Shown here piece by piece: positions 17,858 through 20,376 of a DNA stretch of 35,428 nt. The number at the start of each line of letters is the position of its first letter. The first letter of the stretch is position 1. The position numbers were made by a program, and so were the translations under genes. Under the pieces are notes generated by a model. It was not told the DNA's origin. It did no database searches and saw only the letters and a program-made list of their open reading frames with translations. The DNA comes from a virus, in IMG/VR virus record IMGVR_UViG_3300044633_001408, positions 1 through 35,428 of that record. One strand, given 5' to 3'.

Positions 17858-18308
17858 TTGGTTGCTCCACAGTTTCAACGATGACAAAAGCGGAATCCTC
17901 ATCGCCCCAACATTTGCGAGCCTCTCCCGAAATCACCTGACTGTCATCCTTCCAGAGCACACCCTTGAAAGCATCTTCCAGGCACCGCAACAGCTTTGTT
18001 CTATCCGGTTTCTGAGTGTGCCAGAATGGTGCTGTCGGCTTCATAATGGCTGAATTCTTGCCAGTCCGGAAATGTGCTTTAGGTCTCGCGAATGTAAACA
18101 GGACTTGCAAATTGATTGGCCCTGATGCACACCCCCAGCCTGATTCCTTCACGGCTGTGGTCGCAGCTCGCTTGCACAGCGTTTGCCACTTAGCTTTCCC
18201 TTTTGCCGTATCAACCACAACAATCCTTCCTGTCTTGCTGTGCTGAAATGCTTTTTTAGAACCTGATGGCGATGGCTTGCCAAGGATGGTAAAGGATATT
18301 GCACTCAT
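17838..18308 (-). CDS. RusA-like Holliday junction resolvase
   Basis: A 156-residue protein. The N terminus ISFTILGKPSPSGSKKAF is the strand-turn-basic motif of RusA. The catalytic region KPDRTKLLRCLEDAFKGVLWKDDSQVI holds the conserved aspartates (DRT, ED, KDD). It would resolve branched DNA formed in replication and recombination before packaging. It overlaps the HNH gene by 4 bases and the following basic gene by 20. Confidence 0.85.
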   Translation of the reverse strand: MSAISFTILGKPSPSGSKKAFQHSKTGRIVVVDTAKGKAKWQTLCKRAATTAVKESGWGCASGPINLQVLFTFARPKAHFRTGKNSAIMKPTAPFWHTQKPDRTKLLRCLEDAFKGVLWKDDSQVISGEARKCWGDEDSAFVIVETVEQPNEIQAS

Positions 18309-18787
18309 ACCATGGCTCCGTTTCGATCTAAACCTAGCCTTGATATGATATCAGGTCGATTGGCAAAGACCATTTTTGCTCGATTAAAAAAGTGTTCTTC
18401 TCCTCTTTGGAAGTCGCTGTAATTAAATCCTAGGCATAAAGCTGATGACACCATTCGGTCTTCAACTGTTCGATTAAAGAACCATTCCCAGTATGTCGTT
18501 TGAAATGGGTCATATTTAGGGTTTCCGCAATGCTCAGAGTCGATATGGCATCGGCCACAAAGTAAGTGCAAGTTCCGATATTCGTTTGATCCTCCTAGCG
18601 ATAACGGGATGATATGCGCTCGCTCCGTTTTGCTTTCTCCGTTGGTGAATCCACAAGCAAAGCAGTAATCGCCTTCTAGGAACTCGTAACTACTATCAAA
18701 CCCCTTAAACCGCCATATGGAGGTGTTAGCCCAGTAAATACGAATGTCTTTTTGCTTTGGCATATCTGATCGCTTGATTCGATTCAT
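18305..18787 (-). CDS. HNH endonuclease
   Basis: A 160-residue protein with a central HNH fold: DYCFACGF (first Cys pair), ERAHIIPLSLGGSNEYRNLHLLCGRCH (catalytic histidine, central asparagine, second Cys pair). The C-terminal segment is aromatic (TYWEWFFNRTVEDRM). Start ATG 18785-18787 overlaps the thyX stop as ATGA, with GGAGG five bases upstream. The longer frame to 18799 lacks this. It could act in packaging, homing or defence; nothing here decides. Confidence 0.8.
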   Translation of the reverse strand: MNRIKRSDMPKQKDIRIYWANTSIWRFKGFDSSYEFLEGDYCFACGFTNGESKTERAHIIPLSLGGSNEYRNLHLLCGRCHIDSEHCGNPKYDPFQTTYWEWFFNRTVEDRMVSSALCLGFNYSDFQRGEEHFFNRAKMVFANRPDIISRLGLDRNGAMV

Positions 18788-19545
18788 ACCTTCCTCCACT
18801 TCGTTTCAATCCCTTGATCCGTCACCGTGTAATCACCAAAAAGGTTTGGTGATTCGGCCTGCAACACGTCCAGAACAGCAATCGCCAGACGTTGAATCTC
18901 AGCATCCGCATGGATCGAGCCACGCAGTTCAAGGAAGTGCCTCCATGCTCTGGCGTTGCCAGTGACAAATATCTTGGTTTCAGTGCAGTTCGGCAGGACA
19001 GCGCGAGCGGTTTCCCTGATTTTCTTGCGTTTCAAAGTCTTATCTGTAATGTCAGCAAAACGCATCTCAAGAGATTCAATCATTGCTTGATATTGGCCCA
19101 AAGCCCTACCGACACACGATGCCCACCATGCACCGGATTCGCTTTCTAATGTGATGCTCGGCGGAACAACAAATGCGCAGTCCGACTCATCCACATATCG
19201 TTGGCTGAGCTGCGAATAACTCATGCCAGCACGATGCCTGACCAGCTCGTGCGTGAGTGACCGCGAGACGCCCGTGAAAATCATCGAGTAAACAGCATGC
19301 TCCAACACTGAGCCGTGGCCCACTTCCAAGATGTGGTCAATATAAGCCTGATTGCCACCTGGTCGCGGCTTGGCAAAGCTCATGTAGCACAATCGGCCAG
19401 CGATCTCCACCAGATGCTCGCTAGCGTTATCGGTGTCGCTGTTCCAGTGTTCGACGTTGTTGGCTTCCAAGAACTCGGCACAATCAAGGCTGTTGAGTTC
19501 TTGTTTGCCGACCAGGTAGACGGATGGGGCGGTAATGATTTTCAC
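18784..19545 (-). CDS. thyX: flavin-dependent thymidylate synthase
   Basis: A 253-residue protein with the ThyX signature RHRAGMSYSQLSQR (residues 103-116) and the GHGSVLEH segment (77-84), whose histidine contacts FAD. It makes dTMP from dUMP using folate and NADPH with FAD, supplying DNA precursors during phage replication. The GTG start overlaps the stop of the CsrA-like gene (GTGA). Length matches the family. Confidence 0.93.
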   Translation of the reverse strand: MKIITAPSVYLVGKQELNSLDCAEFLEANNVEHWNSDTDNASEHLVEIAGRLCYMSFAKPRPGGNQAYIDHILEVGHGSVLEHAVYSMIFTGVSRSLTHELVRHRAGMSYSQLSQRYVDESDCAFVVPPSITLESESGAWWASCVGRALGQYQAMIESLEMRFADITDKTLKRKKIRETARAVLPNCTETKIFVTGNARAWRHFLELRGSIHADAEIQRLAIAVLDVLQAESPNLFGDYTVTDQGIETKWRKV

Positions 19546-19754
19546 TTTGTTTCAACTCCGTTCGCTTTTTGTTTCGCTTCCCAAACTTCCAGCCGATCCA
19601 CTCTTACTTCAAGTGGAGCTTCAACACCAATCTTGACCTTGTCGCCCCTGATCTCAGTGACGCAAACCCTGAATTGAATGTCGCCATAGTTGATGACAAG
19701 AACTTCATTGACCTTCCTGGAAAGTACTAAGATGGCACACCTCCTTATGACCAT
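19542..19754 (-). CDS. csrA: CsrA-like RNA-binding regulator
   Basis: The core (LVLSRKVNEVLVI, TEIRGDKVKIGVEAP, EVRVDRLEVWEA) matches the CsrA/RsmA family over its full length. CsrA binds GGA motifs in mRNA leaders to control translation. Coordinates use an ATG at 19752-19754, but that ATG overlaps the upstream stop and has no ribosome site. A near-perfect AAGGAGGT lies six bases before ATC at 19731-19733, exactly where the family's ATG would stand (M-L-V-L becomes I-L-V-L). Either translation starts at ATC, or the short upstream version is used. It may control host or phage mRNAs, perhaps its own, since the site contains GGA. Confidence 0.85.
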   Translation of the reverse strand: MVIRRCAILVLSRKVNEVLVINYGDIQFRVCVTEIRGDKVKIGVEAPLEVRVDRLEVWEAKQKANGVETK

Positions 19755-20320
19755 TGTTTAAAACGCACAATCAGTGAAATCGAAGATTGATTCACTCGAA
19801 ATGCCGCTGACAGCATCGACTGGCTCCATCCACCAGCGAACAAACTGCGTATGACGTGTACGTCACTTTGACAGAGTTTTACCGTGGAAGTGTTTTGCGA
19901 GTTTTCTTTTTGTGTTACCCATCGGCAATTGCTGGGTTTGTAATCCCCATTGTTGTCGATCCGGTCGATTGTTAGGCCAACTGCATAGCCATTGCGTTTC
20001 GACCAGGACGCAAACGGTTCGTATGTACTCCACTCTGCACAGACTTGTATTCCTCTCCCTCCGTAGCGATAATATCCCCTGTTGTTTTTGTTGTTGCACC
20101 GATCTTTCATATTCCGATAAGCCCGATAAATAGGACTCTGGTATTCTCCATGCTTTGAGGCTTTTCCGTTCATGCAACCGCAAGACTGCTTTTTTCCTGT
20201 CCGGTTGTTTCGATTTACAACGCAAGAAATTCTCTCAAAAACTGTTTTACAGTGCGGACACGAGTAAACTCCAATTCGTCCGCTACCGCTACCTTTTTTT
20301 ATTTCAAGTGCCACAAGCAT
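19745..20320 (-). CDS. HNH homing endonuclease-like protein
   Basis: A 191-residue protein. An N-terminal zinc-ribbon-like section holds CPHC and CGC pairs. The central pattern RYGGRGIQVCAEWSTYEPFASW followed by GLTIDRIDNNGDYKPSNCRWVT is the common phage HNH/AP2-associated nuclease layout. The C-terminal helix-turn-helix-like segment (GGWSQSMLSAAFRVNQSSIS) probably directs DNA binding. GGAGG lies eight bases upstream of the ATG. Such genes are usually selfish inserts; it sits between a gene-free stretch and csrA. Confidence 0.8.
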   Translation of the reverse strand: MLVALEIKKGSGSGRIGVYSCPHCKTVFERISCVVNRNNRTGKKQSCGCMNGKASKHGEYQSPIYRAYRNMKDRCNNKNNRGYYRYGGRGIQVCAEWSTYEPFASWSKRNGYAVGLTIDRIDNNGDYKPSNCRWVTQKENSQNTSTVKLCQSDVHVIRSLFAGGWSQSMLSAAFRVNQSSISLIVRFKQWS

Positions 20321-20352
20321 TGCTGTAGCCTCCGTGATGCGTTTGATTTGAT

Positions 20353-20376
20353 GCCGGGAGTGGTCAAACTCCCGGC
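20353..20376 (-). terminator. strong GC-rich hairpin, possible terminator
   Basis: GCCGGGAGT (20353-20361) pairs perfectly with ACTCCCGGC (20368-20376) around a 6-base loop. It lies just upstream of the HNH gene on the minus strand. There is no T run after it, so it may slow or protect RNA and not end it. Confidence 0.4.

Follow-up and report, generated by a model that had tools for sequence, protein, structure and literature searches.

The window, a 35,428-nt stretch of viral DNA spanning positions 1 to 35,428 of IMG/VR record IMGVR_UViG_3300044633_001408, carries an operon-like run of minus-strand genes comprising an HNH-type ORF (20320-19745), csrA, thyX, a second HNH ORF, and rusA. The features relevant to csrA are listed below from the leader downstream.

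20353..20376, minus strand: strong GC hairpin GCCGGGAGTTTGACCACTCCCGGC in the leader ahead of the operon, with no T-run
20329..20333, minus strand: predicted original csrA Shine-Dalgarno (SD), the GGAGG of CACGGAGGCTACAGCA-ATG, now apparently serving the HNH gene
20312..20320, minus strand: first HNH codons ATG CTT GTG, the same as csrA codons 1-3 in empty-site relatives
19745..20320, minus strand: HNH-endonuclease gene of 191 aa with a Zn-finger-like N-terminus, HNH core, and HTH-like C-terminus, missing from sister loci
19752..19754, minus strand: incidental in-frame ATG within the HNH stop region, unconserved and CTG in five HNH-bearing relatives
19738..19747, minus strand: extended SD TAAGGAGGTG (10/10), which shares bases with the HNH stop TAA and with an ANGGA motif of CsrA type
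19727..19744, minus strand: 18-nt start-region signature GGAGGTGTGCCATCTTAG, common to unrelated AUY-start phage csrA genes
19731..19733, minus strand: predicted ATC start codon; seven relatives have ATT here and six HNH-free relatives ATG
19545..19733, minus strand: csrA coding sequence from ATC, 63 aa, stop TGA at 19544-19542, PF02599 match
18784..19545, minus strand: thyX, beginning at a GTG that overlaps the stop of csrA (GTGA, 19545-19542); Thy1 E=2.4e-52, TIGR02170 E=4.1e-46

The first-pass annotation had identified a phage CsrA homolog, and this was borne out by matches to Pfam PF02599 (E=1.7e-14, 54 bits against a gathering score of 27), to a CsrA-like PHROG (E=2.8e-13), and to solved CsrA structures (E down to 1.1e-7), including 1t3o. 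The score against NCBIfam TIGR00202 was 55.9 bits, below the equivalog cut-off of 70.1, hence the protein is a divergent member of the CsrA/RsmA family. In alignment, the strictly conserved CsrA positions L4, R6, A39, P40, and R47 were all kept, and those contacting RNA, namely L4, R6, and R47 (the Arg of the VHR/VDR motif), were invariant and also kept relative to 1t3o. Judged by its substitution pattern, csrA is under strong purifying selection, with dN/dS values of 0.02-0.16 in comparisons of the window with eight relatives, ATY and ATG copies included. The interval originally assigned to the gene, 19542-19754, is the ATG-to-stop ORF, while the likely gene is shorter, occupying 19733-19542 including the stop. 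Downstream, the second HNH endonuclease gene lies 3′ of thyX (window 18305-18799; PF14279 E=5.4e-9), so csrA-thyX has an HNH gene on both flanks.

We predict with high confidence that csrA starts at AUC, as had been proposed. The start region reads ...CAATGGTCATAAGGAGGTGTGCC-ATC-TTA-GTA-CTT-TCC-AGG-AAG..., with the ATC at 19733-19731. Its ribosome site, previously described as very strong, proved stronger than claimed, as TAAGGAGGTG gives 10 consecutive matches to the anti-SD complement, ends four bases before the ATC, and occurs once in the window against 0.05 expected. The only upstream ATG in frame (19754-19752) has no SD, in agreement with the first-pass annotation, and the triplet at this position is CTG in the five HNH-bearing ATT relatives L004, L005, L007, L008, and L014, which argues that the ATG is fortuitous. 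No ATG, GTG, or TTG was found in L014 from the upstream stop through to codon 45, nor in frame in L027, across 17 open upstream codons and the 78 codons of csrA itself. A conserved AUN codon therefore follows an extended SD at the right spacing with no canonical alternative, the window having an unconserved ATG only. A -1 frameshift from the HNH frame into csrA at CGT-TTT-AAA was also considered and rejected; read by eye, this is no proper X XXY YYZ site when taken in the HNH frame, and the csrA frame has a stop inside CGT-TTT-AAA.

Fourteen close relatives were present in IMG/VR, of which 13 retained the csrA start region and one, L015, lacked the csrA 5′ end. Alignment of these copies, suggested beforehand as a check on whether ATC is kept, gave a mixed answer, with a non-AUG codon (ATT) in seven and ATG in six. 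Recovery of the start region in 13 relatives with both codons makes an assembly error very unlikely. The six ATG relatives (L002, L003, L006, L011, L012, and L013) represent empty sites, in which a leader hairpin, CACGGAGG(C/T)TACA.., and ATG-CTT-GTN run directly into csrA, the full pattern being CATCA(A/C)GGAGG(C/T)TACA..-ATG-CTT-GT(T/G). At filled sites (the window, L004, L005, L008, and L014), the same kind of leader and an ATG-YTN-GTG run into the HNH gene, on the 3′ side of which TAAGGAGGTGTGCC-ATY-TTA-GTN runs into csrA. L007 (ATT, HNH-bearing) is cut at the leader end of the locus. Sister phages are thus polymorphic for the presence of the HNH gene at a fixed csrA start site. Since the leader, SD, and ATG-CTT-GTG of empty sites open the HNH gene in the window, the insertion would have taken the start of csrA, which was re-supplied with another. 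Placement of an HNH gene at the csrA start is, from these comparisons, very likely, and insertion on the original start would explain why the native ATG and SD are gone from csrA and a new SD is present. Unrelated hairpins occupy the place of the window leader hairpin in the relatives.

The site also varied in other ways. In L014, the HNH start GCC-ATG-TTA-GTG and the csrA start GCC-ATT-TTA-GTA flank the insertion as an imperfect direct repeat. L009, L010, and L096 (the last a different csrA allele) are HNH-free, yet have GCC-ATT-TTA-GTG behind an ordinary leader. Such a pattern could have been left by repeat recombination, or by spread of the 3′ side of a filled allele. These three loci have an ordinary CGGAGGCTACAGCC site, and the GTG at codon 3 could serve as their start instead. 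In two further alleles, L236 and L237, csrA starts with GTG behind the leader seen in the ATT alleles, so that ATG, GTG, ATT, and ATC are all represented at the csrA start site across sister phages.

The window HNH ORF opens MLVALEIKK... and ends TCA-TAA, the TAA being the first three bases of TAAGGAGGTGTGCC-ATC-TTA-GTA, after which csrA follows. Its product matched PHROG HNH families (E=1e-40 and 1.2e-39) and HTH phrog_517 (E=2.3e-5), and hence combines an HNH core with a DNA-binding module. Similarity to the HNH homing endonuclease structure 1u3e was weak (E=0.008), and searches of the protein against Pfam HNH and NCBIfam models gave no match. In the HNH proteins of relatives, an AP2-like module was detected at E values of 5.8e-7 to 3.2e-4, under the Pfam cut-off. 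The HNH gene in the window had a dN/dS of 0.29-0.33 and, considered alongside the values for csrA, both genes look maintained.

Further AUY csrA genes were identified by scanning for GGAGG, AUH, and a csrA start. A scan of IMG/VR with GGAGGTGTSYCATYTTAG returned 17 matches, all 17 of which were csrA starts. An HNH (+AP2-like) gene abuts an AUY-start csrA in L027 (ATC, HNH ending ..TKGGVPS), in L298, the L106 contig (ATT, ..KHGGVSF), and in L302/L304 (ATC, ..SQGGVPS). In all of these, the HNH C-terminus reads GGVPS or GGVSF across the csrA start and terminates at a TAG drawn from csrA codons 2-3. This overlap does not force AUY, because with ATG the overlapping HNH codon would be Cys and the stop after it would not change. 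Identity among the CsrA proteins of L027, L298, and L302 is 33-51%, whereas the HNH proteins of L027 and L302 share 59% identity, the greater likeness of the latter being as expected for a moving nuclease. An HNH (+AP2-like) gene also abuts or overlaps csrA in L250, but there ATG is kept and codon 3 is TGT (MLCLSRK). At this locus (L250:1501-1700), TGT replaces an otherwise conserved valine and could be another way of altering a nuclease site.

AUY csrA genes without an abutting HNH gene were found in L009, L010, L096, the L108 group, L303, L112, and the chromosomal loci L123, L137, and L210; such genes could represent scars left by lost insertions, or AUY starts that arose independently. The L108 group has an ATC start and a leader in common with L298 (77-84% over 79-91 bp), and lacks an intact HNH gene but has a short or truncated HNH-like ORF upstream (phrog_374 E=2.3e-12). 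L112 is ambiguous, as its csrA frame is open for 90 codons upstream and includes ATGs. Among 93 chromosomal pattern matches, three were full-length CsrA, namely L123 (Adhaeretor mobilis chromosome), L137 (Clostridiaceae MAG), and L210 (Planctomyces MAG). These have ATA or ATC behind AAGGAGG, and their open upstream frames contain no canonical start, although L123 has TTG and GTG at codons 2-3. A DNA search of annotated phage genomes gave no match, and searches of the phage collection with the L298 CsrA and L302 HNH proteins, considered at the level of protein matches, identified no cultured phage with an HNH gene on the csrA start.

All phage data are metagenomic. Unlike the ATC of the window, sampled viral csrA starts were nearly all ATG, this codon being found in 68 of the best 80 viral loci in the alignment search, alongside eight ATT (the phage family of the window), three GTG, and one locus with a replaced 5′ end. 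Restricting the best 80 to the 77 with a start-independent internal motif gave 65 ATG, 8 ATT (all from the same family), 3 GTG, and one without a 5′ end. Clustering of 97 loci at 70% yielded 33 clusters, single linkage being conservative, and an HNH gene abutted csrA in 4/8 AUY clusters compared to 1/25 others (Fisher p=0.008). This comparison is fair with respect to HNH, since the AUY genes were gathered by start-region patterns that make no mention of it. GGAGGTG was present in 5/6 viral AUY lineages and 0/31 ATG-start csrA genes with GGAGG (p=1.4e-5), a comparison partly ascertained by the search patterns and with a somewhat generous p-value, as L027, one of the five, was found by a GGAGGTG pattern.

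The SD in the window overlaps a near-consensus CsrA site, ATAAGGAGGT, that matches at 9/10 positions ACANGGANGU, the SELEX consensus for CsrA binding; the SD regions of L106 and L112 match this consensus at 10/10. CsrA self-repression through the predicted SD-overlapping site is plausible. However, GGA is present in any strong SD, and no special hairpin presenting GGA was detected (z = 0.7), the start regions of the window and L004 folding no better than shuffles.

The explanation we favor, and consider probable, is that an HNH endonuclease seated on the start codon carries a replacement SD and near-cognate start, keeping csrA translated at a reduced level. An HNH homing-type endonuclease gene would insert at the phage csrA start codon, capturing the ribosome site, ATG, and first codons of csrA for its own translation. 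Its 3′ end would bring a substitute start region, consisting of an extended SD of 10 nt, within which the HNH stop codon falls, and a near-cognate AUC or AUU six bases after GGAGG. Ribosomes ending HNH on UAAGGAGGUG, or fresh 30S subunits retained by the extended SD, would then start csrA at AUC, with initiation by initiator tRNA and a yield well below that of AUG. That the extended SD and AUY were supplied together with the HNH element is somewhat less assured, although we lean toward this origin. The low-yield model draws on S. aureus, in which conserved AUU/AUA starts with an extended SD give about 10% of AUG expression in poor medium (PMC13009471), and on IF3-sensitive re-initiation, excess IF3 lowering re-initiation after an upstream ORF (PMC2268962). 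A bolder and rather doubtful extension is that a class of phage endonucleases targets the csrA start codon and brings a portable start (extended SD, AUC/AUU, and TTA), the near-cognate codon keeping csrA translated while destroying the nuclease's own site, which would make filled alleles immune. If so, the uninserted ATT alleles L009, L010, and L096 would be homing-resistant scars.

The AUY csrA genes without HNH, whether in phages or in the three chromosomes, also fit a different history, in which the AUY start is a regulatory device, conferring low, IF3-sensitive, CsrA-repressible expression, that was selected in phage csrA before an HNH gene settled nearby. In keeping with this, SDs in several lineages overlap CsrA-type ANGGA motifs that match the SELEX consensus at 9-10/10 positions, and the S. 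aureus AUU/AUA starts, infC included, are regulatory (PMC13009471). However, in the family of the window the extended SD and ATY come together with the insertion and most empty sites are ATG, AUY clusters are enriched for abutting HNH genes, at least one case lacking HNH (L108) has a truncated HNH-like ORF upstream, and a GGA overlap comes with any strong SD. We therefore regard a primarily regulatory origin as unlikely. Translation from the in-frame ATG farther upstream (19754), by coupling to HNH termination, is improbable. It would add the seven-residue extension MVIRRCA to CsrA. This ATG lies across the end of the HNH gene, in a position that can permit re-initiation, and is the sole ATG/GTG/TTG near the start in the window, but it lacks an SD, is replaced by CTG in five HNH-bearing relatives, and has no counterpart in the open upstream frame of the AUY csrA genes L027 and L108. 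The first residues of CsrA form an RNA-binding beta strand, hence such an extension is unlikely to be neutral.

Phage group I introns commonly hold HNH genes (PMC3428280, PMC3984707), and on paper the MLVLSRK frame returns when ATGCTTGT through ATCTTAGT is deleted. Were the HNH region a self-splicing intron, the spliced mRNA would regain ATG-CTT-GTA-CTT and AUC would never be a start. This is very improbable, given that no Rfam intron match was obtained in the window region (E<=1) or in L298, L302, L300, L250, and L014 (gathering threshold), that the HNH ORF takes up almost all of the 587-nt stretch, that by inspection nearby splice points with an exon-final U and intron-final G fail to restore the frame, and that the uninserted L009, L010, and L096 still have ATT. 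A non-AUG start would be a first lesion to expect in a gene dead or dying after insertion, with ATC a lost start. Full-length ORFs, the low dN/dS between the window and both ATY and ATG copies, a maximal SD kept at the correct spacing, and recurrence in unrelated phages leave this the least probable reading of all.

A start-codon-seated HNH gene with a replacement start has partial precedents. Free-standing HNH endonucleases disrupt phage genes in the case of mobE in nrdA of Aeromonas phage Aeh1 and mobA in T4 gene 60 (PMC2988022), where, as here, an HNH gene lies inside a phage gene whose downstream part is translated separately, with regulation by overlap or coupling. In those systems the target gene is split into two polypeptides, whereas in the window the nuclease would sit on the start codon, leaving csrA whole behind a non-AUG start and extended SD. 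The ShiLan-domain HNH is a hidden, non-splicing insertion in a phage methylase (PMC11855218) that similarly has its stop at the very 3′ end of the insertion, but its reading frame differs from that of the host ORF, which continues uninterrupted around it, while csrA would be re-started after the insertion. Near-cognate AUN starts rescued by a long SD occur in S. aureus cvfC1 (AUU) and ccpN and infC (AUA) (PMC13009471); these are cellular genes with no mobile element, unlike csrA here, a phage gene whose AUC/AUU start is linked to an endonuclease insertion. The CsrA encoded by Pseudomonas, Vibrio, and other phages (PHROG 9500) belongs to the same protein family as that of the window. We found no report in the open-access literature of an HNH insertion at csrA, of AUU/AUC csrA starts, or of an endonuclease that occupies a start codon and is followed by a substitute AUC/AUU start. 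Non-AUG starts beyond GUG/UUG are rare and overlooked by gene callers, and the recurrence of AUY in one gene family of unrelated phages, together with the link to mobile endonucleases, suggests how such starts arise and persist. A selfish gene would here take the start of a regulator yet leave the regulator usable, and such loci can readily be recognized by the 18-nt signature.

Variation in the locus extended beyond the csrA start. In L002-L014 and L090-L101, the csrA C-terminal tails after EVWEAKQ exist as RNNGVVTSE, KAGIKA, RTLTNKAVS, and RNHISTETSSS versions, and the tail and following sequence swap among these few versions independently of the N-terminal part, which places csrA in a mosaic, exchangeable segment. 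In L015 (IMGVR_UViG_3300042549_003874), csrA without its 5′ end adjoins 5′ sequence of thyX, the junction being a GTTCTTG common to both, and 1.2 kb upstream there is a different csrA start.
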